Below are positions 15,631 to 33,310 of a stretch of DNA of 43,649 nucleotides, piece by piece. This stretch comes from Myxococcota bacterium. GTDB taxonomy: Bacteria; Myxococcota_A; Polyangia; Polyangiales; Houyiibacteriaceae. The position numbers and the translations under genes were made by a program. Where the stretch lies: positions 1 to 43,649 of the forward strand of contig JALOQC010000026.1 in NCBI GenBank assembly GCA_025453555.1, read 5' to 3'. The notes below the pieces were generated by a model. It searched no databases and was not told where the DNA came from. It worked only from the letters and a program-made list of their open reading frames with translations. The stretch's first letter is position 1; each line of letters begins with the position of its first letter.

Positions 15631-16554
15631 TCAGTCGACGATGCGCACGAGCTCGACGTCGAAGACCAACATGCCGGCCGGCGCGCCCGGACGACCCTGG
15701 TACGCGAGGCTCTCCGGGATCCAGAGGCGCCGCTTCTCGCCTTCGACCATGAGCTGCACGCCTTCGGTCCAACCCGCGATCACCTGGTCGAGGCGGAAGG
15801 TCGCGGTCTCGCCGCGGACGACGCTGCTGTCGAACATGCGGCCGTCGGTGGTCCAACCGCTGTAGTGGACCTCGACGCGGTTGGTGGCCGCCGGGTGGCG
15901 CGAGCCGGTCCCGCGCGTGAGCACGCGGGAAGCCAGACCGCTCGCGGTGCGCTCGGCGCTCGCGGGTGCGGCGGCGACGTCCTCGGGGGCGGCGGGCGGA
16001 TCGGGCATCTCTTCGATCTCGAGCAGCTCGACGTCGAACACGAGCATGCCCTGCGGGCGACCGGGGCGACCCTGGTACGCGAGGGCCTCGGGGATCCAGA
16101 AGCGGCGCTTCTCGCCCGTCACCATGAGCTGCACGCCTTCGGTCCAGCCGGCGATGACGCCGTTGAGCGGGAAGGTCGCGGGGCGTCCGCGCTGCACGGA
16201 GCTGTCGAACATGTTCCCGTCGGTCGTCCAGCCCGTGTAGTGCACGGTGACGCGGTCGTTCTCGTCGGGGTGCGTGGTGCCGCTGCCGGCCTGCAGGACC
16301 TTCGAGGCGAGGTTCGTCGCGGTGCGCTGCGCGTCGGCGGGCGGCGCGGCGACGTCGCTCGGCGCCGGGATCGCACCGGGCTCGGGCGGCGCGGCGGGGC
16401 CGGCGCTCGGGCGCTCCGTCATCGCGGTCGCGGCCATCGTGCCTGCCTGGTCACCCGCGTTCGTCGTCGGGAGATCGACGGGCTCGGTGGGGGCAGAGGG
16501 CTGATTCGCGCATCCGAGCGCGAGGAGGAGGGAGAAGGCGAGTCGCTGGGACAT
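15631..16554 (-). CDS. Lipoprotein with two tandem FKBP-type peptidyl-prolyl isomerase domains
   Basis: Lipobox 'LLLALGC'. Two copies of 'RVxVHYxGWTTDGxMFDSSV...GWTEGVQLMVxGEKRRxWIPExLAYQGRPG..GMLVFDVEL'. Confidence 0.92.
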   Translation of the reverse strand: MSQRLAFSLLLALGCANQPSAPTEPVDLPTTNAGDQAGTMAATAMTERPSAGPAAPPEPGAIPAPSDVAAPPADAQRTATNLASKVLQAGSGTTHPDENDRVTVHYTGWTTDGNMFDSSVQRGRPATFPLNGVIAGWTEGVQLMVTGEKRRFWIPEALAYQGRPGRPQGMLVFDVELLEIEEMPDPPAAPEDVAAAPASAERTASGLASRVLTRGTGSRHPAATNRVEVHYSGWTTDGRMFDSSVVRGETATFRLDQVIAGWTEGVQLMVEGEKRRLWIPESLAYQGRPGAPAGMLVFDVELVRIVD

Positions 16555-16776: not shown

Positions 16777-17817
16777 CTACAGCGCGACCCCGAGGCCGAG
16801 CGACACGGTCGACCACGCGCCGTCTACGGCGGCGGCGACGGGGCCGCGCGGGTCACCGACGCGACCGACGACGGGCAGCGTGACCGTGCCGAGCTCGAGC
16901 CGCGCGTGCACGAGCAAGCGACCGACGAGCACGCGCCACGTCTCTCCGACGAGAAATGCACCGCCGAACGGCGCGCTGACGACCCGCGCGTTCGGCGCGT
17001 CGCGATCGCCTTCGAGGCGCGCTCGTCCGACCCGCGCGCCGATGCCGCCCGCGATCCACCACGCGCCGACGGGACGACGCAGCAGCATCGCGACGCTCCA
17101 GCCGAGGCGATCGTCGCGTACGCGGCCGAGGTCGGAGCGCACGCGTCCGCGTGAGAGATCCATGCCGAAGCTCAGGCTCACGCGTGGACCGAGATCGACG
17201 AGCGCTTCGACCTGACCGCCGCCGATCGCGTGCGCGGGGCTGCCGCTGCCGCCGAACGTCCCGTCGAGCATCAAGCGCGCCCGCGAGACGCGTCGGATCG
17301 GACCGGGCGGCGGCGGCGGCGCGGGCGCGAGGCGGGCGTCGACCACGCGGCGCGCGACCTCGCGGACCGGCTCCGGCGCGACGGGCGTGAAGACGGGCGG
17401 CGCGTCGCTCGGAGGACGCAGCCGGAGCTCGGCCCAGCTCGCGGACACGAGCTCCGCGATCGCGAGCGCGAGCAGACGCGATCGGGCGACGCGCGCGGTG
17501 CCTTCGAGATCGATGCGCCGCGAGGTGAGCTTGCCGGTGACGCCGTCGTCGACCTCGAGCAGCGTCGCGTCGCGCGTGCACGAGGCGCGGACGCGGGTGG
17601 TGCCGAGGGTGTCGACGTCGACCGGCTCCACCGCGAGCTCGATTCCGACGATGCGGCGCACCGCGGGGGCGTCGACCTCCAGGCACGGGTGCAGATCGAT
17701 CTGGAGCGGGACGCTCTCGAGCGCTTGGGCGTGCAGGCGCGCGAAAGGAGACGGCGCGAGGAGCGCCGAGAACGTGACGAGCGCGGCGAGTGTGGGGCGG
17801 AAGGGCGCCGCGATCAG
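16777..17817 (-). CDS. Envelope protein (signal peptide plus C-terminal beta-strand-like region), third gene of the ECF sigma operon; start codon uncertain
   Basis: Hydrophobic N-terminus 'LAALVTFSALLAPSPFARLHAQA'; C-terminal alternating strands. No ATG near the upstream stop; a CTG at 17817 would overlap the upstream TGA. Confidence 0.6.
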   Translation of the reverse strand: MIAAPFRPTLAALVTFSALLAPSPFARLHAQALESVPLQIDLHPCLEVDAPAVRRIVGIELAVEPVDVDTLGTTRVRASCTRDATLLEVDDGVTGKLTSRRIDLEGTARVARSRLLALAIAELVSASWAELRLRPPSDAPPVFTPVAPEPVREVARRVVDARLAPAPPPPPGPIRRVSRARLMLDGTFGGSGSPAHAIGGGQVEALVDLGPRVSLSFGMDLSRGRVRSDLGRVRDDRLGWSVAMLLRRPVGAWWIAGGIGARVGRARLEGDRDAPNARVVSAPFGGAFLVGETWRVLVGRLLVHARLELGTVTLPVVGRVGDPRGPVAAAVDGAWSTVSLGLGVAL

Positions 17818-18992
17818 TCGAGCCCGCCGAAGCGACGGACGGCGTCGACGCGCACTCCGCTCGGGAAGCGCGCCAGGTACTCCTCGGCGAGCGCACGTGC
17901 GCGCTCTTGTCGTCCTGCGCGGTGCCAAGCCTCGACCTCGCGTGCGAGAGCATCCTGCGCGAGCGAAGAAGCGGGATCCAGTCTCGCGGCTCGTTCGAAG
18001 GCGTCGGCGGCTTCCGCGGGTCGGCTGCGCAGGAGCACGCGGCCGATCGTGAACGCGGCCAGCGGAGCGCGGGAGTCGTTCGTGTGCTCGTCGACGACCC
18101 GACGGAGGTAGGTGACGGCTTCGTTCGGATGTCCGGAGAGGCGCGCGGCGTCGGCGGCGAGCATGAGGTCGTCGACGTCGGTGGTGCGCACGTCGTCGGC
18201 CGCGGAGAGCGCGGTCCAGGCCGCGTCGAAGTCGCCTTCTTCGGCGAGCGCGCGCCAGCTCGTGGCTTCTTCGCGCGCGGACGTGGCTTCGCGGTCTGCG
18301 GTGCCGTTCGCGGCGGGCGCGGTGCGCGTCGGTTCACGCTCGCGCACCACCTGCTCTTCCTCGGGCGCTGCGCTCGCGGTCTCGCCGTTCGTGCCGCTCG
18401 CGACGCCCATCGCGACGGCCTCGACGGGCGCTTCGACCGCGGACGACGCGGCCCGGTGAGCGGCGAAGCGCGCGCGATCGCCCGCGCGCAGAAGGCGATC
18501 CTCGTCACCTGCTTCCACACGCACGCGACCTTCGAGCACGTCGACCTCGATCTCGTCCGTCTCGTGCGCGACCACGAACTCGGTGCCCACCACGGTCACG
18601 CGCACGTCTTCGGCGTCGACCACGAACGCGCGCTCGGGCAGGCGGCTCACGTCGAAGCGCGCGCGCCCGCGGGTCAGCTCGAGCTCGATGCGCGCGTCGG
18701 CGACCACGCGCGGCGTCACCTCGGTGTCGGCGTCGAGGAAGAAGACCATCGATCCGTCGGGCAGGCGCAGGCTCGGGCTCGTCGCGGTTTCCGTGGGCGC
18801 GCTCGTCGGAACCATCCGCCACGCACCGACCGCGGCGAGCAGGACCAACGCCGCGCTCGCGGCGACCTTCACGACGGTGCGGCGGCGACGCTTCGCCACG
18901 AGGCCGCGCCACTGACGATCGAGGACGACCTCGTCGTCCTTCGTCGTGACGTGCTCGCGCGCTTTCGCGAGCGTTCGGGTCAGCTCATCCAT
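17814..18992 (-). CDS. FecR-domain protein with one TM helix and C-terminal TPR-like region, putative anti-sigma/sigma regulator
   Basis: TM 'VVKVAASAALVLLAAVGAW'; FecR-like 'LRLPDGSMVFFLDADTEVTPRVVADARIELELTRGRARFDVSRLPERAFVVDAEDVRVTVVGTEFVV'; TPR-like C-terminus. Overlaps the sigma gene by 8 nt. Confidence 0.85.
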   Translation of the reverse strand: MDELTRTLAKAREHVTTKDDEVVLDRQWRGLVAKRRRRTVVKVAASAALVLLAAVGAWRMVPTSAPTETATSPSLRLPDGSMVFFLDADTEVTPRVVADARIELELTRGRARFDVSRLPERAFVVDAEDVRVTVVGTEFVVAHETDEIEVDVLEGRVRVEAGDEDRLLRAGDRARFAAHRAASSAVEAPVEAVAMGVASGTNGETASAAPEEEQVVREREPTRTAPAANGTADREATSAREEATSWRALAEEGDFDAAWTALSAADDVRTTDVDDLMLAADAARLSGHPNEAVTYLRRVVDEHTNDSRAPLAAFTIGRVLLRSRPAEAADAFERAARLDPASSLAQDALAREVEAWHRAGRQERARALAEEYLARFPSGVRVDAVRRFGGLD

Positions 18993-19638
18993 CGACTTCG
19001 AGCTCCACCAAGATCCGTTGATGCGCCGCGGCGATCTTGCGCTTCGCGGTCGCGAGGGAGCAGCCGCAGAGCTCGGCCACTCGTTCCAAACGTTCGCCTT
19101 CGACGTGGCGCAGCGACCAGGCCACGCGTTCGTCGCTCGGCAGCGAGTCGAGCACCGCGTACACCTTCGCGAGCGTGTGCCGCGAGGTGGGGTCGGCCGC
19201 GTCGTCCGCGACCTGCGTGTAGTCGGCGCCCTCGTCGAGCCCGAGCACGCGCCGCACGCGACGGAGCTTCAAACGACGCTGCGCCTTGCGCACCGTGACG
19301 GTCGCGAGCCATCCCTTGATCGCGCCCGGCTCCCGCAGCTCGTCGAGCCCGCGCTGCGCGTCGAGGAAGACGTCCTGCACGAGGTCGTCGATCTCTTCGT
19401 GCCGCCCGAGCAGGCGCAGGCCGATGCGCGCGACGTAGGGCGCGAAGCGGCGGAAGACGGCCTCGCGGTCGCGGGGATCGATGGCCGCGTGCGCCTCGCC
19501 CGAGACGCGACCGCTCGCTTCGACGCCGCTCGGACCGGAGGCGCTCGGATCGGCCCCGCTCGGATCGGCCCCGCTCGGATCACCCTCCTTCGGGGACCCG
19601 GGCTCCACCAATCGGAGTCGGCTGCGTTCCTTCGCCAT
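18985..19638 (-). CDS. ECF-family RNA polymerase sigma factor
   Basis: Sigma2 'EEIDDLVQDVFLDAQRGLDELREPGAIKGWLATVTVRKAQRRLK' and sigma4 'LPSDERVAWSLRHVEGERLERVAELCGCSLATAKRKIAAAHQRI'. Confidence 0.93.
   Translation of the reverse strand: MAKERSRLRLVEPGSPKEGDPSGADPSGADPSASGPSGVEASGRVSGEAHAAIDPRDREAVFRRFAPYVARIGLRLLGRHEEIDDLVQDVFLDAQRGLDELREPGAIKGWLATVTVRKAQRRLKLRRVRRVLGLDEGADYTQVADDAADPTSRHTLAKVYAVLDSLPSDERVAWSLRHVEGERLERVAELCGCSLATAKRKIAAAHQRILVELEVDG
19543..19587 (-). repeat. 15-bp tandem repeat in the N-terminal linker of the ECF sigma gene
   Basis: gctcggatcggcccc x2 plus a diverged third unit, encoding GDPSGADPSGADPS. Confidence 0.85.
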
Positions 19639-19650
19639 GCGCTCGAAACA

Positions 19651-19681
19651 CGTAGTGTACCGCGCACGAAAAACGGCTCAC
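19651..19681 (-). promoter_or_regulatory. Putative ECF-type promoter, copy C, upstream of the ECF sigma gene
   Basis: Minus strand GTGAGCCGTTTTTCGTGCGCGGTACACTACG; shares both blocks and exact spacing with copies at 19835 and 31225. Confidence 0.75.
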
Positions 19682-19774
19682 GGACGAGGGCGCGCTCGGG
19701 TCGAATGGCAGGACGGGTGTCGAAGGCGTGAAGACTCATCGGCTCCGCGCTCACGCGCGACCCGATGGTTTCTC

Positions 19775-19824
19775 GGAATCGTTCAGCTTTGCGGACTTGC
19801 GTCCGCTTCGCCTCGAACGATTCC
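19775..19824. repeat. Inverted repeat with internal hairpin between divergent ECF promoters
   Basis: GGAATCGTTC (19775-19784) / GAACGATTCC (19815-19824) enclosing GCGGAC-TTGC-GTCCGC (19791-19806). Confidence 0.8.
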
Positions 19825-19834
19825 GCTTCGATTC

Positions 19835-19865
19835 GTGAGCCGTTCTGCGACGGCCACGCACTACG
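19835..19865 (+). promoter_or_regulatory. Putative ECF-type promoter, copy B, upstream of the lipoprotein operon
   Basis: GTGAGCCGTTCTGCGACGGCCACGCACTACG; GTGAGCCG - 16 nt - CACTACG. Confidence 0.75.
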
Positions 19866-19883: not shown

Positions 19884-22800
19884 ATGGCATCCACGCGCTC
19901 TTGGACATTGGCCTTCGTCGCGCTCTCGTTCGCCGCGTGCGACGGCAAGGACGGCATCGTCTACGAGGACGGCGGCGTCGACGCGCCGGTGCTCCCCGAT
20001 GCGCCACGCGACGTCGATGCGCCCAGCGTGCTCTCCACCACGCCCGCGGACGGCGCGGGGGAGGTCGAGCGCGACACGACGGTGAGCGTACGCTTCGACG
20101 AGGCCATGGACCCCACGCGTGGCAGCGTGGAGGTCGCCGGGACGACCTACGGGGTCGACGACGGCGCGTGGTCGGACACGACGTGGACGCTGACGCCCGA
20201 CGTGCCGTTCGAGGAGGGCGCGCGCGTGCAGGTGGCGCTCGAGGACTTCCGCGACGTCGCGGGGAACGCGCTGCCGACGTACCGCTTCGAGTTCACCGTG
20301 CGGCGCGACGCGCCGACGGTCGTCACGAGTGACCCGGCCGAGGGAGCGACGGTGTCGGCGCGCCTCGACGTCCTGCGCTTCGAGCTCTCCGAGCCGATGG
20401 ACAACGCGCGCGGCTCGGTGACGATCGACGGCGGCGCGACCGTCGGCGAGGTGCGGTGGATCGCGGAGAACGAGCTCGAAGTGGACGTCGAAGGCCTCGT
20501 GTACGAGCGGACCTACCGGGTCGCTCTCACGGGCTTTCGTGATCGCGCGGGCACGGAGCTGGCGGCGGACACCCTCGGCGACGGAGTGCTCGACTTCGCG
20601 ACCGGCGAGGACGGCGACGCCCCGCGGGTGATGGATGCAAACCCCGCGGAGGGGCAGCTCGACGTCGATTTCGCGTCGCCGACGATCACGATCGTGTTCG
20701 ACGAGGCGATGGCGACCGACGTCGGAGAAGCGCGCCTCGTGGTCGACACGCTGGACGTGGCGCTCGACGGAACGTGGAACGCCGCGGGCACGACGTTGAC
20801 GCTCGACGTGGCGGGGCTCCTGCGCTCGGGCGGAGCGCACCGCGTGGTGCTCACGGGCTTCACCGACGTCGCCGGCAACGCACTGCCGGCGACCGATGCT
20901 TTCCTCGTCGACGACGCGCTCGACTTCCAGACGGGCCGCGATCTCGCGACGCCCTTCGTCGGGTTCTCCGATCCCTTCGAGTCGCAGGGCGACGTCACCT
21001 TCCAGCGTGAGCGCGTCGTCGTCTTCTTCAGCGAGGCGATGGCGCGCGACGTCGACACCGTGACCTTCGTCGGCGACGACGGGAGATCCTTCGACGCGAC
21101 CGGGACGTGGTCGCTCTCGGGCACGCGCCTGACCCTCGACGTGCGCGATCGTCTGCAGAGCGGGCGCGCGTACACGATCGACCTCTCGGGCTTCCGCGAC
21201 CTCGGGGGCGCGACGGTCGACGCCACGCACCCGTATCTGATCGATGGGGTGCTCGACTTCTCGCTCGTGGCGCCGCGCGGCGAGCGCTGCAACGACGCGC
21301 TCGAGGTCGCGCAGGCGACCACGACCGATGGCGTCCACGTGTGGACGATCGATGGTGCCGCCTTGAGCCTGCAAGACGGTTCGGGCACCTGCGACGAGAC
21401 GAGCAGCGGAAACGACGCGGTCGTCCGCTACGTGAAGACGACGGCCGACACCGCGGGCGGCGGCACCGTGCTCGCGATCCGCGTGGAGAACACCGCGGGC
21501 GCGAACGTCGAGATCTTCCGTGATCTCTGTGATCCGCGTGACCTCGCGGCGGACGCGGCGCGGCTCAAGTGCCTCTGGAACAACGACGATTGGGAGGCGT
21601 ACCTCGACGTCGGTCCGGGCGAGTACTTCGTGTGGGCGATGCCGACGAGCTCGTCGACGGCGGCGACCACCGTCACGATCCGCGAGCTCGCGCTCCCGCC
21701 CGAAGGCGAGACCTGCCTCGCGCCCTGGACGACGGCGAGCGCGATCTACACACCACCCGCGACCCCCGACGACTACGGCGTGTTCACGCTCCCGGCGGGC
21801 GCGTTTCAGTCGTTCGATCGCGACGTGACCTGGAACCGTCCGGGCACGCCGCAGTGCGACGCCGACTATGCGAGCGGCCCGATCGTCGGCGCGGACGGCG
21901 TGCTGCAGATCACCAAGACCGACAGCGACTCCACGCTCGAGATTTTGCTCGAGGTCGACGGCACGACCAGCGTCAACACCTTCCTCGTCGCCGAGCTCCT
22001 CGACCGCTGCGATCCGCTCGCGGCGGGTGCGGTCAGCCTCGAGTGTCGGGCCGCACTTCGCAGCGCCGACAACCCGCACCAGTTCTTCTTCGACGGCGCG
22101 GCCGGCACGTACTTCCTGTGGCTCCACACCGATCGCACCGGCGGCGAGATCGAAGGCGCGCGCGTGCGCGTGAAGGAGACGCGCGTGACGCCGGGTGACA
22201 GTTGCGAGGACGCGCTGCCGCTCGTGCCCGACTCGTCGAACGTCGTCACGCCGACGGGGACCCAGCGCCTCTTCGCGCCGAGCTGCGCGCCCGACGCGCC
22301 GCTGACCTGGTACCGCTTCACCACGACGTCCGCGATGACGGTGCTGAGCACGGACGTCGCCGCCGCGGTGGGCGTAGTGGACGCGGCCTCGGGGGGCGAG
22401 CGCGCGTGCACCGCGGACGCCACGGCAGGCCGCGCGATCTTCGCGGCGGTCGGCACCGACGTCTGCGTCGCCGTGCCCTCCGGCGCGGTGGGCCGCATCG
22501 ACCTCGCGGGGCGCGCCTACGACGGCGTGCTCGGGCGACCGACGGCGCTCTCCATCGATCGGCCGCTCAACGCGAGCGGCAGCACCGCGACGATCACCGC
22601 CGACAACTGGATGACGGTCACCCCGAGCACGCTCTACATGGGCGTGGGTACGAGCTCGACCACCGTCGGCCTACTCCGCGCGCCGAAGGTCGGTGGTGTG
22701 CAGGCGGAGCTGCTGCAGACCGGGATCACCACCCGCGAGATGGGCAACGCGGGCGCGTCGGTGGGGGAGGCAGTGTTCTCGGTCGACGAGAGCACGACGA

Positions 22801-23426
22801 TCGCGGACGGCGACGCGTACACCTTCCGCCTCGTCGGGACCTCCGGCATCCCCGCCACCGAGGCGTGGGACACTGGCAACGCCTACCAGAACGACGTCGA
22901 CGCGATGGGCTACGACGGAACCGAGCTGCTGCTCGCGACCGACGTGAGCACCGGCGCGCCGGACACGTTCTTCTACGCGCTCGATCCGACGACGCCCGGC
23001 AGCAGCCGATCGATCGGACGCAACTCGGTGATCGAAGACGTCACCGCGATCGCGGGCGACGCCACGCACGTCTACGTGCTCGGCAACACCGGCACGACGG
23101 CGAGCGAGGGGCTCTATCGCCTGCGCCGCGATCAGCTCGGAGACGTCGCGCAGGTGCCGGAGGCCATCCACCTCGTCGCCCTCGACGACTTCCGCGCGAA
23201 GCTCTTCCTGCACCGCACGGCGACGACGACGTACGCGTACTTCCGCGACGACGCGGCGAACCTGCACGTGGCCGACGTCGGTGCCGCCACACCGACCTAC
23301 CTCGGGATCCTCAGCGAGATCGGGGGCAGCGCCGACGACGCGTTCGCCTTCGATCCCACCGGACCCGCGATCTACCTCTTCGAGACCGAGTCGCTCACGA
23401 CCGGCAACTTCGTCCGCCTCGACTGA
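19884..23426 (+). CDS. Large lipoprotein with repeated bacterial Ig-like (SbsA/Big_5-type) domains
   Basis: Lipobox 'LSFAAC'. Repeats of 'TTPADGAGEVERDTTVSVRFDEAMD...LEDFRDVAGNALP'. RBS GAGAGGA. Confidence 0.85.
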   Translation: MASTRSWTLAFVALSFAACDGKDGIVYEDGGVDAPVLPDAPRDVDAPSVLSTTPADGAGEVERDTTVSVRFDEAMDPTRGSVEVAGTTYGVDDGAWSDTTWTLTPDVPFEEGARVQVALEDFRDVAGNALPTYRFEFTVRRDAPTVVTSDPAEGATVSARLDVLRFELSEPMDNARGSVTIDGGATVGEVRWIAENELEVDVEGLVYERTYRVALTGFRDRAGTELAADTLGDGVLDFATGEDGDAPRVMDANPAEGQLDVDFASPTITIVFDEAMATDVGEARLVVDTLDVALDGTWNAAGTTLTLDVAGLLRSGGAHRVVLTGFTDVAGNALPATDAFLVDDALDFQTGRDLATPFVGFSDPFESQGDVTFQRERVVVFFSEAMARDVDTVTFVGDDGRSFDATGTWSLSGTRLTLDVRDRLQSGRAYTIDLSGFRDLGGATVDATHPYLIDGVLDFSLVAPRGERCNDALEVAQATTTDGVHVWTIDGAALSLQDGSGTCDETSSGNDAVVRYVKTTADTAGGGTVLAIRVENTAGANVEIFRDLCDPRDLAADAARLKCLWNNDDWEAYLDVGPGEYFVWAMPTSSSTAATTVTIRELALPPEGETCLAPWTTASAIYTPPATPDDYGVFTLPAGAFQSFDRDVTWNRPGTPQCDADYASGPIVGADGVLQITKTDSDSTLEILLEVDGTTSVNTFLVAELLDRCDPLAAGAVSLECRAALRSADNPHQFFFDGAAGTYFLWLHTDRTGGEIEGARVRVKETRVTPGDSCEDALPLVPDSSNVVTPTGTQRLFAPSCAPDAPLTWYRFTTTSAMTVLSTDVAAAVGVVDAASGGERACTADATAGRAIFAAVGTDVCVAVPSGAVGRIDLAGRAYDGVLGRPTALSIDRPLNASGSTATITADNWMTVTPSTLYMGVGTSSTTVGLLRAPKVGGVQAELLQTGITTREMGNAGASVGEAVFSVDESTTIADGDAYTFRLVGTSGIPATEAWDTGNAYQNDVDAMGYDGTELLLATDVSTGAPDTFFYALDPTTPGSSRSIGRNSVIEDVTAIAGDATHVYVLGNTGTTASEGLYRLRRDQLGDVAQVPEAIHLVALDDFRAKLFLHRTATTTYAYFRDDAANLHVADVGAATPTYLGILSEIGGSADDAFAFDPTGPAIYLFETESLTTGNFVRLD

Positions 23427-23444
23427 TTGGACGGGAGAACGCTC

Positions 23445-26400
23445 ATGACGATCCGACGCATCCTCGCGATCCTCTGCACGCTCGCCGTCGCTTGCGGAGA
23501 CGACGACCGGCCCACCACCGACGGAGGCCCGGGCGATCCCGACGGCACCGCACCCACCGACACCGTTCCGCCCTTCGTGGTGGGCACGGATCCGGCCGAC
23601 GAAGAGACCGGCGTCGCGGTCGGACGCGACGTGACGATCTTCTTCTCCGAGGCCATGGCGACCGACGTGGGCGCCGCGAGCGCGACCGCGGACGGCGAGC
23701 CGCTCACGCTCGGCGAGGGCGTGTGGGACGAGAGCGCGCGCGAGCTGCGCTTCACGCCCGAGCTGCCGGCGGACGCCACGATCGTGCTCTCGCTCTCGGC
23801 CTTCGAGGACGTCGCGGGCAACGTGATGGTGGACGTCGAAGTGAGCTTCTCGACCGTCGACGGACGGGCGCCCCGCGTCACGAGCGCGACGCCGAGCGAA
23901 GGCACCGACGACGCGGAGCTGACGTTCGACGCGCGCTTCGAGATCGACGAAGCGCTCGCCAGCGATCGCGGTGCAGCGGCGCTGATCGGGCCCGAGGGCG
24001 ACGTCGGCACGATTCGTTTCGAGGGCACCACGCTCGTCGTACCGGTCTCCGGGCTTCGTCCCGACACCGAGTACTCGCTCGCGCTCTCCGACTTCGCGGA
24101 CGAATCCGGCAACGCGCTCGTCGGAGGCGACGCGCTCGGCGATCTCGCCCTCGACTTCTCGACCGCGCCCGACACCGCGGCGCCGCAGGTGGTCGACGCG
24201 ATGCCGGGTGAGGGCACGGTCGACGTGCCGGCGAGCACGCAGACCGCGACGTTGATCTTCGACGAGCCGATGATGCGCAGCGGCACCGTGACCTACGCGG
24301 GCGAGGCGCTGTCGACGAGCTGGCGATCCGACACGCGCCTCGTGGTGCAGCTCCCCGCGCCGCTGCCGCTGTCGGCGACCGTCTCGCTCGTGTTGGCCGG
24401 CTTCGTCGACCTCGCGGGCAACGCGCTCGACGGCGAGGCGTACCTCGGCGACGGCGCGCTCGACTTCACGCTCGGCGAGGATCTCTTCGCGCCCTACGTG
24501 GTCGGATCGTTGCCGGAAGAGGGCGCGGTCGACGTCGCGTACGACGTGCCCCGCTTGGTGGTCGCGTTCAGCGAGGCGATGGACACGAGCGTGACGGCGG
24601 TGACGGTGCAGAGCGCGCTCGGCACCGCGACGATCGACGGAACCTGGAGCGAGTCCGGCACCCTGCTCGAGGTCGACGCGACCGACGTCGTCGCGGGTCA
24701 GACCTACCGGCTCTCGTTCCCGGGCTTCGAGGACGTCGGCGGCACTGCGCTCGACGTCGCGCATCCGTACCTCGGCGACGGCGCGCTCGACTTCGAGACT
24801 GAAGCTCCGACGGGCGAGCGCTGCCGCGACGCGCTCGACGTCGCGCGCGCTACGAGCTCGAGCGGTGGGCGCCACGAGTGGGTCCTGCCGGCCGCGACCT
24901 TCGAGTCCGCGGACGGACCGATGACGTGCGACACCACGACCTCCGACGACGCCGTGATCCGCGTGCGCAAGCTCGGGGACTCCACCGTGCTCCGCGTCAC
25001 GGTCGAGAGCGCCAACACCGACGAGCTCGTGGTGCAGGCGACGCGCGGCGTGTGCGACACCACGACCGAAGCGGGCGTCGCGGCGATCACGCGCTGCTTG
25101 CCGAACTCGAACCAGTGGGGCTTCCACCTCGAGGGGCCGGCGGGCGACTACTTCGTGTGGGTCGCGCACGAGAGCACCGGCAACTTCGACGGCGCGACGG
25201 TGGTCGTGGAGGAGCTCGCTCCGCCCGAAGGTGAGACCTGCGCGGAGCCGCTCGATACCGCGAGCACCTCGTTCTACACGGCGCCGCCGACGGCGGGCGA
25301 CTTCCACACGTGGACGGTGCCGACCGACGGCGTGCTCGGTTACGACCGCGGCAGCGTCAACGGCGACGCGGACGACTTCGCCTGCAACGACGACACCGAG
25401 CGCGGCGCGGACTTCGTGGTGCGGTGGGACAAGTCGACCGCGACGAGCCTGGTGGAGATCGAGGTGTCGATCGGCACCGAGAACGGTCTGGTCGAGATCT
25501 TGGACGGCGCCTGTCTGCCGAGCGCGGGTGCGACGCGCGGCGCGTGCGAGCCTGGGTTCACGGGGAGCCGCACCTACCTGATCGACGGCCCGGCGCGCCC
25601 ACTCTTCGTGTGGGTCGCGGCGGACGACGACGGGCTCACGTCGGATCCCTTCAGCTCCTACTTCCCTCCGAGCGCCACCGTGCGCGTGCGCGAGATCGAG
25701 CCTGGCCTCGGCGACTCGTGCAGCAGCGCGATCCCGCTGGTCGTCGGTGACAACGCCGTCACCCCGACGGGCACTCGCTCGCTCGGCGCGCCCTCCTGCG
25801 CCGCAACCGCGCTGACGTGGTACCGCTTCACCGCATCGACGACCCTCAGCGTCGTGACCGGCAACGGCTTCGCGCCGGCCGGCATCGTGACCACGAGCGG
25901 CACCGAGCTGTCGTGCAGCGGATCGGTCGTGTCGGGCGTCGCCGCCTTCACCGCGCCCGGAGCCGAATACTGCGTCGCGGTCGCCTCCGGAGGCGCGGTC
26001 ACGAACCTCCGCGTCGAGTCGGTGCCTTACGCCGGCGTCACTGGAGCGACGGTCACCGACCTCCTGGTCGAGCCTTACGAGGGCAGCTCGTCCATCGACG
26101 ACGTCTTCGATCCCGAAGACTGGATCGCCGTCACTCCGACCTACGTGTACCTGGCGAGCGACAACGATCGCCTGATGCGCGCACCGCGAACGGGCGGCGT
26201 GATCGCCGAAGAGCTCCTCGAGGACGCGACGGTGATGGGCGAAGCTGGTGTCGCGGTCGGCGAAGCGATTTTCGGGGTCGACGATCTGCGCAGCGGCGCG
26301 AACCGGCTCTTCCGCTACGTCGCGCCCGACGGGACCTTCGGCGTGATGCCTTGGGACACCGGCTCGACGTACGTGAACGCGGGCATCGACGTGATCGCCT

Positions 26401-26942
26401 ACGACGGGACCTCGCTCTTGCTCGCTTCCTCGCGCGAGACGACGTCACCGCAGCCGATCACCTTCTACTCCGCCGACCCGAGCACGCCCGGGCCGGTGAC
26501 GCTGCTCGGCACGAACGATTCGCTCAGCGACGTCTCGGCGATGGTGGCGGACGCGACGTACCTCTACGTGGTCGGAACGGTCGGCACGACGGAGGGCGTG
26601 TACCGCCTCGTGCGCTCCGAGCTCGGCAACCCCGCCGCGGCCGTCGAAGAGCTGCAGGTGGGAGGCGCGTCGTTCGATCACTCCAACGACAACGCGAGCC
26701 TGGTGCTCCAGCCGGCCTCCGGGGGCGCGCCCTCGGTGCTCTACTTCCGGCCCTACAACCCCGCGGACGTGTTCGCGATCCTCTCGCCCGAGAGCGTGAG
26801 CCCGCGTTTCCTCGGCCAGGTCTTCGGGCTCGGTCGGAACAACGACGACTACGTGCTGGCTCTCGATCCCTCGGTCCCGGCGCTCTTCCTCACCGAAGAA
26901 GAGACCGACCTCTCCAATCCGCGCTGGCTGCGCGTGGAGTGA
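23445..26942 (+). CDS. Large Ig-like-domain lipoprotein, tandem paralogue of the preceding gene
   Basis: Lipobox 'LAVAC' then GDDD. Same repeat order plus shared 'PPEGETC', 'PTGTRSLGAPSC...LTWYRFT'. RBS GGGAGAA. Confidence 0.87.
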   Translation: MTIRRILAILCTLAVACGDDDRPTTDGGPGDPDGTAPTDTVPPFVVGTDPADEETGVAVGRDVTIFFSEAMATDVGAASATADGEPLTLGEGVWDESARELRFTPELPADATIVLSLSAFEDVAGNVMVDVEVSFSTVDGRAPRVTSATPSEGTDDAELTFDARFEIDEALASDRGAAALIGPEGDVGTIRFEGTTLVVPVSGLRPDTEYSLALSDFADESGNALVGGDALGDLALDFSTAPDTAAPQVVDAMPGEGTVDVPASTQTATLIFDEPMMRSGTVTYAGEALSTSWRSDTRLVVQLPAPLPLSATVSLVLAGFVDLAGNALDGEAYLGDGALDFTLGEDLFAPYVVGSLPEEGAVDVAYDVPRLVVAFSEAMDTSVTAVTVQSALGTATIDGTWSESGTLLEVDATDVVAGQTYRLSFPGFEDVGGTALDVAHPYLGDGALDFETEAPTGERCRDALDVARATSSSGGRHEWVLPAATFESADGPMTCDTTTSDDAVIRVRKLGDSTVLRVTVESANTDELVVQATRGVCDTTTEAGVAAITRCLPNSNQWGFHLEGPAGDYFVWVAHESTGNFDGATVVVEELAPPEGETCAEPLDTASTSFYTAPPTAGDFHTWTVPTDGVLGYDRGSVNGDADDFACNDDTERGADFVVRWDKSTATSLVEIEVSIGTENGLVEILDGACLPSAGATRGACEPGFTGSRTYLIDGPARPLFVWVAADDDGLTSDPFSSYFPPSATVRVREIEPGLGDSCSSAIPLVVGDNAVTPTGTRSLGAPSCAATALTWYRFTASTTLSVVTGNGFAPAGIVTTSGTELSCSGSVVSGVAAFTAPGAEYCVAVASGGAVTNLRVESVPYAGVTGATVTDLLVEPYEGSSSIDDVFDPEDWIAVTPTYVYLASDNDRLMRAPRTGGVIAEELLEDATVMGEAGVAVGEAIFGVDDLRSGANRLFRYVAPDGTFGVMPWDTGSTYVNAGIDVIAYDGTSLLLASSRETTSPQPITFYSADPSTPGPVTLLGTNDSLSDVSAMVADATYLYVVGTVGTTEGVYRLVRSELGNPAAAVEELQVGGASFDHSNDNASLVLQPASGGAPSVLYFRPYNPADVFAILSPESVSPRFLGQVFGLGRNNDDYVLALDPSVPALFLTEEETDLSNPRWLRVE

Positions 26943-29128
26943 TGACGATGCGTGACTTCTGCTGCTTCGTGCTCACCTTCGCCCTCGCGGCGTGCGGTGA
27001 CGACGACATCCGGGTCGGTGACGGCGGGCTACCCGACGCGCCCATGGCCGACGCGGGCACCGACGCGGGTCGCGTCGACGTCACGTGTGTCGATCCGGGA
27101 GGCATGCTCGGTGCGACCTGCGAGGTCGCGGCCGAATGCAACGACGGCTGCACCTGCAACGGCGTCGAGCTCTGCGAAGCGGGCGTGTGCGTCGCGGGCG
27201 AGGATCCTTGCGACGACGGCATCGAGTGCACCACGGACGGCTGCGACGAGGACGAGGACGTCTGCGTGTACGAGACCGACGACTCGATCTGCCTCGACGA
27301 CGATCTCTGCAACGGCTCCGAGCGTTGCGTGGTCGGGCTCGGTTGTCGTCCGGGTGGTCGTCTCGCGTGCAGTGATGGCGACCCCTGCACGGTGGGCTCC
27401 TGCGACCCCGAGACCGGATGCGCGTTCGAGCTGCGCGATCTCGACGGAGACGGCTTCGCGGACGATCGCTGCGGTGGCCTCGATTGCTTCGACGACCCGG
27501 GCGATGGCGCGGACGTGTTCCCTGGTGCGCCCGAGATCTGCGGCAACGGCGTGGACGACAACTGCAACGGCATCCTCGACTACCGTGAGGTGACCTGCAC
27601 CGCGTCGAACGACGACTGCGCGACCGCGGAGGCGTTGCCGGGGCCCGGCACCTACGTGCGCAGCACGCGCGGCCTCACGAACGCGATGACGATCGGCTGT
27701 CGCCCCTCGGGCCTCGACGCGGTCTTCACGTTCACGCTCGACCGTGCGCGCGACGTGGTGGTGGTGGCCGAGATCGACGGAGGCAACGGCGCGGTCGCGC
27801 TGCGCCGCCTCGACGATTGCGATTCGACCGGGCCGGACGCGCTCTGCGCGAACGAGGGCGCGGTCTCCGACGTGACCGCGCGGGATCTCGAGCCCGGTGA
27901 GTACGCGATCGTGGTGGAGACCAGCACCGCCACGAGCTTCGCGCTGAGCCTCTCTTTCCTCGAGCCCACGCCGATCCTCCCGGTGGATCTCTGCGACGTG
28001 GACACCGTCGACGTCTCGGCCGGTGGCACCTTCATGGGGCTCTTCGTCGACGTCAACGACGACTACGAGCTCGCCTGCCGCACGCCGAGCACGACCCAGG
28101 TCCGCAAGGACGTCGCGTATCGTCTCGAGATCACCTCGCCCAAGGACGTGGTGCTGCGAGGTTCGACGCGTTCGTCGTCGAGCGTTCGCCCGAGCACCTA
28201 CCTCACGCTCGTCCGCGACTGCGGGAACCCCGCCACCTCGCTCGCGTGCGTGCAGTCGACCAGCGCGGAGATTCGGCGCCGCGCGCTCGAGCCGGGCGTC
28301 TACTACGTGCTCCTCGAGTCGTCGTCGACGACCGCGGTGAGCTGGGAGCTGCAGGTGAGCGTGCTCGATGCGATGCCACGCAACGAAGGAGACGCCTGCT
28401 CCACCGCGGAGGACATCACGGACACCTCCGTCACGTTGCCGCTCTCGAGCCTGGAGCTCGACTACGGCACCGGCTGCGGTGGCAGTACGAGCTCGTCTCG
28501 CGACGGCACGTACGCGTTCACGCTCACCGAGCGCCGCGACGTGATCCTCGAGACGAACGTGGGCGCGATCCACTACCTCTCCGTCGCCACGGAGTGCGGC
28601 AATCCGGCGACGGAGCTCCTGTGCACGAGCGGTACGCCGAGCCTCGCTCCGCGGCTCTTGCGGATGGACCCGGGCACGTACTTCGTGACCTTGTCGACGA
28701 CCCTTTCGAGCGGAGACGTGACGGTCACCGCGCGGACGGAGCCGCCCACCGAGACGCCCGCGAACGACACCTGCGGGGGAGCGCTCGTGCTCGAAGACGG
28801 CGTGGAAGCGCGCGGCACGTTGCTCGGCGCGAGCGACACCACGCTCCTCTGCGGCGCAGATGGGAGCCGCGACGTCTTCTATCGGCTCGACCTCGCGGAG
28901 CGCCGGAACGTCACGCTCGTCGCTCGACGCGCGGACGGTTCGACGGAGCCGCTCTCGATCTCGCTCTTCGGGGGCACCTGCGAGGCCCCCGAGATTCCGC
29001 GCTGCGCGAGCGGCACGCCGGCGTTGCTCAATCGAACCCTCGAGGCGGGGACCCACTACGTCGCGGTGGAGTCGATCCCCAGCTTCGCAGGCTCCTACGT
29101 GCTGACGGCCTACCTCGCGGCGCCCTGA
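26942..29128 (+). CDS. Cys-rich, MopE-like motif-containing lipoprotein with repeated beta domains
   Basis: MTMRDFCCFVLTFALAACGDDD lipobox; Cys-rich segments; 'PGAPEICGNGVDDNCNG' (MopE-type metal-binding motif). ATG overlaps the upstream TGA by 1 nt. Confidence 0.82.
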   Translation: MTMRDFCCFVLTFALAACGDDDIRVGDGGLPDAPMADAGTDAGRVDVTCVDPGGMLGATCEVAAECNDGCTCNGVELCEAGVCVAGEDPCDDGIECTTDGCDEDEDVCVYETDDSICLDDDLCNGSERCVVGLGCRPGGRLACSDGDPCTVGSCDPETGCAFELRDLDGDGFADDRCGGLDCFDDPGDGADVFPGAPEICGNGVDDNCNGILDYREVTCTASNDDCATAEALPGPGTYVRSTRGLTNAMTIGCRPSGLDAVFTFTLDRARDVVVVAEIDGGNGAVALRRLDDCDSTGPDALCANEGAVSDVTARDLEPGEYAIVVETSTATSFALSLSFLEPTPILPVDLCDVDTVDVSAGGTFMGLFVDVNDDYELACRTPSTTQVRKDVAYRLEITSPKDVVLRGSTRSSSSVRPSTYLTLVRDCGNPATSLACVQSTSAEIRRRALEPGVYYVLLESSSTTAVSWELQVSVLDAMPRNEGDACSTAEDITDTSVTLPLSSLELDYGTGCGGSTSSSRDGTYAFTLTERRDVILETNVGAIHYLSVATECGNPATELLCTSGTPSLAPRLLRMDPGTYFVTLSTTLSSGDVTVTARTEPPTETPANDTCGGALVLEDGVEARGTLLGASDTTLLCGADGSRDVFYRLDLAERRNVTLVARRADGSTEPLSISLFGGTCEAPEIPRCASGTPALLNRTLEAGTHYVAVESIPSFAGSYVLTAYLAAP

Positions 29129-29195
29129 GCGTTTCGCTCGACGTTCTTCGCCGATTCCTGATCTCTCTCATTCGACGTTCCTCGTGGAGTCTCCC

Positions 29196-31202
29196 ATGCG
29201 TGCATCTCGCTTCCTGTTCCTCTTGCTCGCGCTCGGAGTCGCTTGCGGCGACGACGACTCGCGCGTCTCCGACGCCGGGCCGCTCAGCGACGCGTCGACC
29301 CCCGACGATCTCGACGGCGACGGAATCTCGAACGCGGACGAGGGATTCGCCGGACGCGTCGACACCGACGACGACGGCACGCCCGATTACCTCGACATGG
29401 ACTCCGACGACGACGGCTTGCCGGATTCGTTCGAGGCCGGCGACGACGACGTGTCCACGCCGCCCGTCGACTCCGACGGCGACGGAACCCCGGACTTCCG
29501 GGATCTCGACTCCGACGGGAACGGCATCGTCGACTCCCGCGAAGGGATGGGGGACGTCGACGGCGACGGGCGCCCCGACGCGCGCGATCCAGACGACGAT
29601 GGCGACCGGGTCTCGGACGTCGTCGAGATCGACGGACGCACCGAGTTCCCGGCGGACGCGGACGACGACGGCATCCCCGACTTCCGCGACCCCGACGGCG
29701 ACGACGACACGATCCTCGACGGAGACGAACGCCCCGCGATGGGCGACGCACCCGACACCGACGAGGACGGCATGCCGGACTGGCGCGACGAGGACACCGA
29801 CGGCGACGGCTATCCGGACTCGGTGGAAGCGGGCGACGACGATCTCTTCACGCCTCCCGTCGACACCGACGAGGACGGCATCCCGGACTTCCGGGACTTC
29901 GACAGCGACAACGACGGTCTCCCGGACGCGATCGAGCGTGACGCCGGGACCGACCCGCTCGACGAAGACTCCGACGACGACGGCGTGAGCGATCTGATCG
30001 AGGTGGGGGCCGGAACCGACCCGCTCGACGGCACCGAGAGCCCACGGACGCGTGGCGACTTCGTGTTCGTGGTGCCCTTCGTGGAGACCCCGGAGCCCGA
30101 GCGCGACACGCTCGAGTTCCGCACGAACATCCAGTTCGCCGACGCGTACTTCCTCTTCGACACGACCGGATCGATGTCGACCGAGATCGACTCGATGAAG
30201 AGCGCGATCGTGAACGTGATCGACAACCTCGTGTGCGAGGACTCGGGCGTCGCTTGCGCGGGCGATCTGGAGTGCATGGAGGGCCAGGTCTGCAGCGCGG
30301 CGGGCACCTGCATCGCCGACCCACGCATCGCCGGCTGCATCGCGAGCCTCTGGACGGGGGTGGGTGTGTACTCGGGCAACCCGAACAGCTACCGGAACCT
30401 GCTCGCGCTGCAGCCCGACTCGGCCGAGACGCAGCGGCGAATCCCGGATCGCGCGGACGGTGGCGGTGCCAACGAGACGCTCTTCGAGAGCGTGGCGTGC
30501 GTGGCCGATCCCACCGCGTGCTCGGGCGCGGAGTGTGTTCCGGGCGGGGTCGGCTGCCCGGCGTATCGCGCGGACGCGCGGCGGATCTTGATCACCATCA
30601 CCGACGAGCCGAACCAGTGCACGACGTGCGCGGTGAACACGGCGGCCGCCGCGGGCAGCCGACTTCGCGCGGAGGATCTCGTGTTCGTCGGCGTCGACGC
30701 GGACGCGGGGAACTCTCCCGCGGTTCCTCTGCAGGAGATCGCGCGCCAGTCGAACAGCTTCGACGCCAGCGGCGAGCCGCTCTACGTGCAAGGCTCCGAA
30801 GCCTCCGTCACGAGCGCCGTCACGGACGCTGTGCGGCGGATCGCGGAGAACGTGACGCTCTTCGTGAACGTCGCGCCGGAGGAGGTCGCCGGCGACGACG
30901 GAGACGCGCTGCCCTTCATCGATCGCATCGAGGTGAACGTCTCGGGCGACGGAGACTGCACCGCGGTCGGCTCGGTGGCGGACACTGACGGCGACGGCTT
31001 CCGCGACGCGTTCCCGAACCTCTTGCCTGGCACCCCGATCTGCTGGGACGTCGTCGCGCGCGAGAACGACCTCGTTCGTCCCACCGCTCGTCCCCAGGTC
31101 TTCGTCGCCCGCGTGGTCGTGCGCGGAGACGGCTCGATCCTCGACACGCGCCGCGTGTTCTTCCTCGTCCCGCCACTGGTGGACCGCCCAGTGTTCGAAT
31201 GA
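29196..31202 (+). CDS. Lipoprotein with thrombospondin type-3 Ca2+-binding repeats and vWA-like domain
   Basis: 'ALGVACGDDD'; 'DxDxDGxPD' repeats; MIDAS-like 'FLFDTTGSMSTEIDSMKSAI'. Confidence 0.88.
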   Translation: MRASRFLFLLLALGVACGDDDSRVSDAGPLSDASTPDDLDGDGISNADEGFAGRVDTDDDGTPDYLDMDSDDDGLPDSFEAGDDDVSTPPVDSDGDGTPDFRDLDSDGNGIVDSREGMGDVDGDGRPDARDPDDDGDRVSDVVEIDGRTEFPADADDDGIPDFRDPDGDDDTILDGDERPAMGDAPDTDEDGMPDWRDEDTDGDGYPDSVEAGDDDLFTPPVDTDEDGIPDFRDFDSDNDGLPDAIERDAGTDPLDEDSDDDGVSDLIEVGAGTDPLDGTESPRTRGDFVFVVPFVETPEPERDTLEFRTNIQFADAYFLFDTTGSMSTEIDSMKSAIVNVIDNLVCEDSGVACAGDLECMEGQVCSAAGTCIADPRIAGCIASLWTGVGVYSGNPNSYRNLLALQPDSAETQRRIPDRADGGGANETLFESVACVADPTACSGAECVPGGVGCPAYRADARRILITITDEPNQCTTCAVNTAAAAGSRLRAEDLVFVGVDADAGNSPAVPLQEIARQSNSFDASGEPLYVQGSEASVTSAVTDAVRRIAENVTLFVNVAPEEVAGDDGDALPFIDRIEVNVSGDGDCTAVGSVADTDGDGFRDAFPNLLPGTPICWDVVARENDLVRPTARPQVFVARVVVRGDGSILDTRRVFFLVPPLVDRPVFE

Positions 31203-31224: not shown

Positions 31225-31255
31225 GTGAGCCGTTTTTCGCCCCCCGCGCACTACG
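31225..31255 (+). promoter_or_regulatory. Putative ECF-type promoter, copy A, intergenic
   Basis: GTGAGCCGTTTTTCGCCCCCCGCGCACTACG; identical to copy C over CGTGAGCCGTTTTTCG and at CACTACG, with the same 16-nt gap. Confidence 0.7.
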
Positions 31256-31260
31256 GGGTC

Positions 31261-31458
31261 GAGCGGCTGGTCCGCTCTCCGAAGCGGCGTGGTGGTCCAT
31301 CCCCCCAACCGCCACGACGCTCAGGACGGGCACCCCTCGGAGCTCTCCGTTTCCACACTTCCCACACACATCCACACCTCACTCCGAGGGGTGCACGTCC
31401 GTTGCCGGGCTCGACGCAGGACGTCTCGAGCCGCCTCCGCGTCCTGAGCCCCGAGCCC
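31261..31458 (+). ncRNA. Candidate structured RNA with four consecutive hairpins
   Basis: Stems at 31261-31277, 31283-31321, 31330-31394 (13 bp perfect) and 31407-31458, immediately downstream of promoter copy A. Confidence 0.45.
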
Positions 31459-31498: not shown

Positions 31499-31675
31499 AT
31501 GCCCGACGAGCCTTCTCCCATGCGCACACCCGAGCCGCGCACACCTGCCGAGCCGCCCGCGCCGACCACGCCGCGCGTTCCGCTCTCGACCCCTCCGGTC
31601 GAGCAGCCGCCGCAGACGCGTGACCGCACGCCGACGCGCCGCCCGCCGCCGCGCGAGTCGCGCGCGCGGCTCTGA
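31499..31675 (+). CDS. Small Pro-rich ORF (58 aa), low confidence
   Basis: MPDEPSPMRTPEPRTPAEPPAPTTPRVPLSTPPVEQPPQTRDRTPTRRPPPRESRARL*; lies downstream of the candidate structured leader; no good RBS close to the ATG. Confidence 0.3.
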   Translation: MPDEPSPMRTPEPRTPAEPPAPTTPRVPLSTPPVEQPPQTRDRTPTRRPPPRESRARL

Positions 31676-31715: not shown

Positions 31716-32906
31716 TCAGCCGTGCACCGCGAGCAGGTAGATCACGATCCCGAACACGCAGATCATCGCCGCCGTCTCGACCCAGCTCACTTGGCCGTCG
31801 TCCTGCACGGCCTTCCAGAGCATCAGCATCGGCGGGAACGCGAGCAGCATCACGCTCGTGGTCTCGAGATCGATCGGCAGGATCGCGCCACTGCTCGCGG
31901 TCGGGATGACGCCCGTCTGCGCGAGGATCGCGAGCAGGATGAGCGCGACCGGGAGCACCACGAAGGGCACCTGGCTCACCTGTCCGGCCGCCGACGCGAG
32001 CGCCACGTCGTACATCTTGTTCGCGTGCGAAGTGACGATCATCGCGAACGCACCCGCGCTCGCGAACACGCTCAGCAAGAGCGCGCCGACCATCTCCGGG
32101 TATCCGGCTTCGTCGAGCGCCTCGACGAGGATGTCCGCGAAGTCGCCCACTGCGTGGCCGCCGAGCACCGAGGTCGCGAGGCCGATCGCGCCGAAGCCCG
32201 CGATGGTGCCCCAGCTCGGCGGCGCCACCGGCGGCGGACCGTCCGCGGCTGACCCCGCGGACCCGGAAGGACCGTCGTGCGCTTCTTCCTTCTCGTCGCT
32301 GCTGAAGCGCTTCACGAGCTCCAGCGTCGCGACGATCTGCACGAAGAGCAGCGCCGCGCCGAGCACGTACAAGTCCGCCGCGCCGAGGCCCTCGCCGCCG
32401 TGATCGCCGGCGGAGAACGTGCGCAGCATCAGCATCACGAGCCCGGTTCCGAGAAAGACCCCCGCCGCGGCGGCGAAGAGATCCGTGCTGATCTTCACGA
32501 GCGGCTCGGGCAATCGCGCGTGACCGGTCGCATCGCGCGGCAGGAAACCGCTGTAGAGACCGAACGCGAGCGCGCCGACGTGCAGGGTCAGACACGTGAC
32601 GATGAAGCCCACGCGCGGGGCGGCGGCGAGCACGAAGCCGAGCATCACGAGCTCGGGCACGTTCGAAGCCAGACCCGCCATCGTGCCGGCGACGAAGGGG
32701 TTCCAGCCGACGCGTTTGCCGACCCCCTCGACGCTCTTGATCATCGCCTCGCAGCTTCCGAACACTACCGCTAGACCGCCGAGCCCGAGACAGGCCGCCG
32801 CGAGCCAGAGGGGCAGCGCGTGATGCCCGAACATCCCGACCGCGACCACCGCGCCGCCGCCGCCGATCTTGTAGAGCCAGCCTCGTCCTTCGCCGCTTCC
32901 CGCCAT
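31716..32906 (-). CDS. Na+/Ca2+ exchanger-type (CaCA superfamily) cation antiporter
   Basis: Two alpha-repeat-like segments: 'NPFVAGTMAGLASNVPELVMLGFVLA' and 'MIVTSHANKMYDVALASAAGQVSQVPFVVLPVALIL'. Multiple TM helices. Confidence 0.75.
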   Translation of the reverse strand: MAGSGEGRGWLYKIGGGGAVVAVGMFGHHALPLWLAAACLGLGGLAVVFGSCEAMIKSVEGVGKRVGWNPFVAGTMAGLASNVPELVMLGFVLAAAPRVGFIVTCLTLHVGALAFGLYSGFLPRDATGHARLPEPLVKISTDLFAAAAGVFLGTGLVMLMLRTFSAGDHGGEGLGAADLYVLGAALLFVQIVATLELVKRFSSDEKEEAHDGPSGSAGSAADGPPPVAPPSWGTIAGFGAIGLATSVLGGHAVGDFADILVEALDEAGYPEMVGALLLSVFASAGAFAMIVTSHANKMYDVALASAAGQVSQVPFVVLPVALILLAILAQTGVIPTASSGAILPIDLETTSVMLLAFPPMLMLWKAVQDDGQVSWVETAAMICVFGIVIYLLAVHG

Positions 32907-33014
32907 CGCGCGTGGGTGTAGTGCAGGAAGCGCCCGCGCGTCGAGCGCGGCGTGTCGGATGCGTCTCGATCGCGTGGGCGTGTGTTGACGTCGTGGTGGT
33001 CGCGGCCGTGGTCG

Positions 33015-33044
33015 TGAACGTGAGCGTGAGCGTGAGCGTGAACG
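33015..33044. repeat. Hexanucleotide repeat (gtgagc/gtgaac)
   Basis: gtgaacgtgagcgtgagcgtgagcgtgaac. Confidence 0.85.
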
Positions 33045-33120
33045 TTCGTCCAACGTGTCGTGTGCAACGAAGGCCAGGCACGACGACCACCGTGCTCTCG
33101 TCGCCGAGCACGTCGCCGAC

Positions 33121-33235
33121 CACGACCACGACCACGTCGACGATCACGTCGACGATCACGTCGACGATCACGTCCACGATCACGTCCACGATCACGTCGA
33201 TCACGTCGATCACGACGATCACGACGATCACGAAG
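33121..33235. repeat. 12-bp tandem repeat (cacgtcgacgat) with 9-bp variants
   Basis: Repeated cacgtcgacgat/cacgtccacgat/cacgacgat units in the intergenic region. Confidence 0.92.
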
Positions 33236-33310
33236 ACAAAGACACTCATCCGTGCGCGACCCGAGCACGCCGCATGTCCTCACGCCCCTTCCTCGCGTAC
33301 CTTCGCGCCC

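Follow-up and report, generated by a model that had tools for sequence, protein, structure and literature searches.

ECF sigma factors are in general autoregulated, their promoters are specific to the subgroup, and the combined use of the -35 and -10 elements for specificity is established (PMC3817407). FecI-like groups have been reported without autoregulation (PMC3817407, PMC9249621), and a FecI/FecR-like pair of Leptospira, LIC12757/LIC12756, is positively autoregulated (PMC13118517). Here, we consider a locus of a Myxococcota bacterium in which an ECF sigma operon lies divergent from an operon of large lipoproteins, within a stretch of 43,649 nucleotides (the window; features in Table 1). 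A sequence-only reading of this DNA had proposed that two divergent ECF promoters provide sigma autoregulation and control of the lipoprotein operon. The analysis supports this proposal through the conservation of the promoters, their ECF spacing, a CGTC -10 in a sister clade and co-variation within the locus. We consider it highly probable that the blocks are a -35, TGAGCCGTT, and a -10, CACTAC[G], read by the ECF sigma factor encoded at 18985-19638 for autoregulation and for expression of the lipoprotein operon, in a family with one -35 throughout and private -10 elements.

Table 1. Coordinates of the predicted genes, promoters and other features of the locus (positions in the window).
Feature	Position	Strand	Details	Basis
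Third operon gene, predicted outer-membrane protein	16777..17832	-		AlphaFold pLDDT 86; Foldseek OmpA 1.8e-7
Predicted membrane anti-sigma regulator (FecR-TPR)	17814..18992	-		Pfam FecR 4.3e-16 and TPR; AlphaFold pLDDT 83
ECF sigma factor	18985..19638	-	217 aa; region 4.2 helix CSLATAKRKI	Pfam Sigma70_r2 and Sigma70_r4_2; alignments
Predicted autoregulatory promoter, sigma operon	19651..19681	-	-35 GTGAGCCGTT (19681-19672), 14-nt spacer, -10 CACTACG (19657-19651)	Exact match and ortholog conservation
Predicted promoter, divergent lipoprotein operon	19835..19865	+	-35 GTGAGCCGTT (19835-19844), -10 CACTACG (19859-19865)	Exact match; counterparts in G001 and G007
lipA, lipoprotein	19884..23426	+	First gene of divergent operon	Pfam Big_5 (Ig-like) 2e-37; ortholog in G001 and G007
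lipB, lipA paralog	23445..26942	+	Big_5 domains	Pfam; relatives
lipC, cysteine-rich lipoprotein-like secreted protein	26942..29128	+		Sequence; weak PPC match
lipD, lipoprotein	29184..31202	+	VWA-like DTTGS motif (VWA by eye only)	Pfam TSP3_bac 5.4e-7
Third exact motif copy	31225..31255	+	Begins 23 nt past the lipD stop codon	
Strongly structured segment, possible small RNA or terminator	31262..31420	+	-68.8 kcal/mol	z -3.58

Like autoregulated ECF/anti-sigma modules in general, the locus has a two-domain minimal sigma factor, a predicted membrane regulator next to it and a predicted promoter before the sigma operon, together with typical -35/-10 spacing and subgroup-specific promoters (PMC3817407). 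It differs from them in its -35, which is TGAGCC and not of the usual, canonical GGAAC type (4/6 positions match GGAACC), in the use of one -35 across a large paralogous family with a locus-private -10, and in sigma mRNAs that often appear leaderless. The locus resembles FecI-FecR-FecA and PupI-PupR-PupB in that the ECF sigma gene adjoins one for a regulator with one TM helix and, in the periplasm, a FecR domain whose predicted fold matches PupR, and in that the operon further encodes a predicted outer-membrane barrel protein with a domain at its N-terminus. Unlike in those systems, no TonB-dependent receptor was recognised by Pfam among the neighbouring gene products, the OmpA-like barrel has 8 strands, and the regulator carries TPRs. 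In further contrast to FecI (PMC3817407, PMC9249621), the sigma gene here is preceded by its own cognate-type promoter motif, which is conserved in orthologs. Judged from the motifs, the sigma factor is probably autoregulated, unlike FecI, with the same promoter type before the sigma gene and its target operon. The Leptospira pair is comparable in that an ECF sigma factor is combined with a FecR-like regulator, the anti-sigma function of which resides in the N-terminal domain, and in the positive autoregulation of the sigma promoter (PMC13118517). It belongs to a different phylum, and the comparison covers the sigma factor, the regulator and the autoregulation.

The sigma factor contains the sigma2 and sigma4 domains only, both above the Pfam cut-off. 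The regulator has a short cytoplasmic N-terminus, one TM helix, a periplasmic FecR domain and C-terminal TPRs, and in Foldseek its model matches a putative anti-sigma protein (4m0n, 5.4e-8) and PupR (6ovk, 4.8e-6) over ca 110 residues, and also TPR proteins. The AlphaFold model of the third product shows an N-terminal alpha/beta domain and an 8-stranded, OmpA-like C-terminal beta-barrel. In most loci, the single-TM FecR-TPR gene adjoins the sigma gene, and a homolog of the barrel protein adjoins the sigma-fecR pair. No specific NCBIfam subfamily was found for the sigma factor, the FecR-TPR protein or the barrel protein. By analogy with the known systems, the FecR-TPR protein may inhibit or activate the sigma factor, and the barrel protein may relay an outer-membrane signal. 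Farther along the minus strand, at 15631-16554, lies a gene for an FKBP-type prolyl isomerase with two tandem FKBP domains.

The three copies of GTGAGCCGTT-N14-CACTACG to which the sequence-only reading had drawn attention are all present with zero mismatches and equal geometry, the distance from GTGAGCCG to CACTACG being 16 nt in each. The -10 block is separated by 12 nt from the sigma ATG (19638) and by 18 nt, with GAGAGGA in between, from the lipA ATG (19884). With up to 3 mismatches allowed, the window contains 3 matches (shuffle mean 0.14), a number that 0/100 shuffles reach. The three window copies are also the only exact ones in the whole genome (699 contigs, 8,334,035 bases), where one further copy has 1 mismatch and another has 2. 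The reversed pattern gives 0 matches in the whole 8.33-Mb genome, and at 71.3% G+C the chance expectation genome-wide is 0.0007 exact and 0.04 1-mismatch matches.

Alignment with relatives, which had been suggested as a check, shows the divergent pair to be kept both in a relative of the same genus (G001) and in one of the same family (G007). The sigma orthologs are there 72% and 67% identical, respectively, and the divergent lipA/lipB/lipD operon is kept as well. The pair consists of TGAGCCGGT-N14-CACTACG and TGAGCCGAA-N14-CACTACG in G001, and of TGAGCCGTT-N14-CACTGCG and TGAGCCGTT-N14-CACTACG in G007, the counterpart before the lipoprotein operon having the -10 CACTACG in the former and CACTGCG in the latter. 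Spacers and flanks have diverged in both relatives while the two promoters persist. More distant orthologs have an N15 spacer and mostly CACTA[C/T] or near variants, and the strict pattern is matched in 7/97 genomes, mostly at sigma loci of the same family. Canonical ECF promoters have 22-23 nt between their two elements, counted from start to start; across the present family this distance is 23-24 nt, that is, of ECF type. As predicted promoters, the two sites are best read as divergent, autoregulatory and ECF-type, and the comparison supports this.

It is important to point out that the -35 element extends well beyond this locus. Among 88 non-identical regions upstream of sigma homologs, TGAGCC is the commonest hexamer of all, found in 73 and, as an exact match, absent from 15, while a first-order Markov model gives an expectation of ca 7 and a maximum of 15. 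Upstream of distant ECFs it occurs in 6/55 cases, 3 of the 6 carrying a similar SLxT-KR helix in region 4.2. The -35 that had originally been proposed needs a small correction: the core conserved family-wide is TGAGCC[G/A], with TT next to it in most cases, and the first G is common and not fixed. The downstream block, on the other hand, changes with the clade of the sigma tree, being CACTAC in that of the window sigma and CACTAT, CGTCCAT/CGTCATG, GCGCCTCAC, GCGTCGGAC, GGAACC, GGTACGAAC or others elsewhere; in one sister clade, the -10 position is the classic CGTC.

The -10 blocks also match within a locus, as expected if the local sigma factor reads both promoters. Where a locus has TGAGCC on both strands (25 loci), the match amounts on average to 5.76/7, compared to 4.30 +/- 0.20 when permuted (0/2000 permutations), with examples such as GCCACTGAG/GCCACTGAG (L087), TCTCTA/TCTCTA (Myxococcus qinghaiensis, L122) and GGAACCCT/GGAACCCT (L077). 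The region 4.2 helix, CSLAT[A/V]KRRI, is near-invariant across the family and region 2 is variable. The -10 blocks are more alike where sigma2 identity is higher (r = 0.39, against 0.11 as the permutation maximum), and the correlation with sigma4 (region 4) identity is weaker (r = 0.30). Region 2 and region 4 are correlated with each other and with phylogeny, and the link to sigma2 is therefore short of residue-level proof. Taken together, the family counts, the clade-wise downstream block and the match within loci indicate that the predicted -35, TGAGCC, is shared by a large Myxococcota family of ECF paralogs and that the predicted -10 is specific to the clade or locus. Of the motif, only the CACTAC block is specific to this sigma factor; TGAGCC, which the whole family has in common, is not private to it.

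The same arrangement recurs in this genome, where TGAGCCGTT is found at 36 sites (15 for the reversed control), several of which directly precede lipoprotein genes and have other -10 blocks (contigs C48, C66 and C639). On C639, TGAGCCGTT (423-431, 3274-3282) and the -10 GACGACTC are found both at a sigma paralog and at a lipoprotein gene close to it, and this pair is a predicted second circuit of like kind. The divergent pair on C19 has the common -10 GGCCCTC. TGAGCC as an ECF -35 was not found in the accessible parts of the literature searched, and it may be listed earlier in the ECF classification; the combination of a family-wide TGAGCC -35 with -10s private to the locus, in association with a FecR-TPR/OmpA-like module, looks new.

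The sigma gene had also been predicted to be almost leaderless. Taking the first in-frame start, a rule biased toward short leaders, the distance from the -10 in 69 members has a median of 13 nt and is <=15 nt in 43; many members have gaps of 5-7 nt, which place the start codon at the expected transcription start. A conserved LRL motif near the N-terminus backs the short leaders in many members, though not in all, and for the window sigma the ATG at 19638 is the sole in-frame ATG/GTG between the -10 and this motif. Since the start-choice rule leans short, short leaders are a trend and not a measurement, and it is as such a family trend that the prediction holds, with 12 nt at the present locus. 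We infer that the sigma mRNAs would be leaderless or nearly so.

Other explanations of the promoter pair have to be weighed against these results. Two conserved half-sites at a fixed spacing could in principle bind a dimeric regulator, and the blocks would then be operator sites of a separate DNA-binding protein and not sigma promoter elements. We regard this as very unlikely. The blocks are not repeats of each other, whether direct or inverted, and they are oriented toward a start codon close by (at a median distance of 13 nt). One clade of this family has CGTC at the -10 position, and the motif goes together with the sigma gene and varies in step with the sigma sequence. It is also unlikely, if less strikingly so, that another ECF paralog reads the promoters, or that several do so redundantly: the -35 is common to the family and the genome has 27 sigma-like matches, several with a TGAGCC -35, but promoters with CACTACG hardly occur outside this locus and the -10 types follow the clade of the adjacent sigma factor. 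Long antisense ORFs span the region in this high-GC DNA, which could suggest a coding-sequence remnant or plain coincidence; with the genome-wide expectation of 0.0007 and the conservation in relatives despite diverged spacers, that explanation is effectively refuted and its probability negligible. The reading that we prefer is that the ECF sigma factor encoded at the locus would itself recognise these sites.

The third copy is not a chance occurrence, the match being exact at 17/17 positions and beyond chance. As a conserved regulon member it is rejected, since no motif is present behind lipD in either G001 or G007. It could still be a functional promoter, for a small structured RNA or for a transcript antisense to a Na/Ca-exchanger gene, and thus a lineage-specific extra output of the sigma factor. 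The segment right behind the copy is predicted to fold, as RNA, with unusual stability, and the exchanger gene (31716-33053, minus strand) lies head-on downstream. On the other hand, the copy has no counterpart in the two relatives, the DNA downstream is matched in none of 57 relatives over its full length (only in 25-49-base fragments in three genomes), no Rfam family was found for the segment, and the copy could equally be a remnant or the promoter of a lost gene; we judge a functional promoter to be plausible, with the balance tipping slightly against it. The long hairpin directly behind the copy is lineage-specific. Between the copy and the exchanger gene there is a small proline-rich ORF of 58 aa (31499-31675, plus strand), with no evidence of being a gene, and just upstream of the exchanger gene a short unit is repeated in low-complexity DNA (33100-33250). 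The 1-mismatch copy elsewhere in the genome (C437:25705-25735, minus strand; the same as L050:7706-7735, minus strand) has the -10 block CACTGCG and lies between a gene for a BamD-like lipoprotein, beginning 27 nt behind its stop, and a TPR gene ca 400 nt away. It is a possible fourth site.

In the circuit that we propose for the sigma factor and its two divergent promoters, an envelope signal would be relayed by the OmpA-like barrel to the FecR-TPR membrane regulator, which would release or activate the sigma factor. The freed sigma factor would then transcribe its own operon, encoding itself, the regulator and the OmpA-like outer-membrane protein, and also the divergent operon, which encodes the large surface lipoproteins, resulting in positive feedback and a mostly local regulon. 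The private -10 would be recognised by the divergent sigma region 2, and since the -10 is specific to the clade or locus, several paralogs could coexist in a cell without cross-talk. The parts of this scheme based on sequence are the motif, its conservation, the matching within loci, the clade-specific -10s, the invariant recognition helix, the gene order and the predicted folds. A broader reading is that surface-signalling switches independent of TonB, each made up of an ECF sigma, a FecR-TPR regulator and an OmpA-like barrel, form a large family of paralogs in Myxococcota, with one -35, TGAGCC, read by an invariant helix, insulation mainly through diversification of the -10, and leaderless sigma mRNAs; in our view, the odds for and against it are evenly balanced.

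Polyangial myxobacteria have dozens of ECF sigma factors, and few promoters have been assigned to them. A family with a fixed -35 and private -10s is a naturally occurring series in which -10 recognition by sigma region 2 can be studied, and a source of candidate orthogonal promoter/sigma pairs for use in synthetic biology. Regulons would also become predictable from sequence, for example the lipoprotein genes elsewhere in the genome that lie behind other -10 variants. The module suggests, in addition, a Fec-like envelope signalling route via an OmpA-like barrel that is tied to large surface lipoproteins.

As to the lipoprotein operon itself, the lipC ATG overlaps the lipB stop, and lipD is 72-73% identical to its counterparts in G001 and G007. 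The genes lipA and lipB (19884-26942, plus strand) are tandem paralogs encoding proteins of ca 1170-1180 aa with Big_5 domains, and pairs resembling them adjoin sigma paralogs in two further genomes, G044 and G059 (L052, L053).
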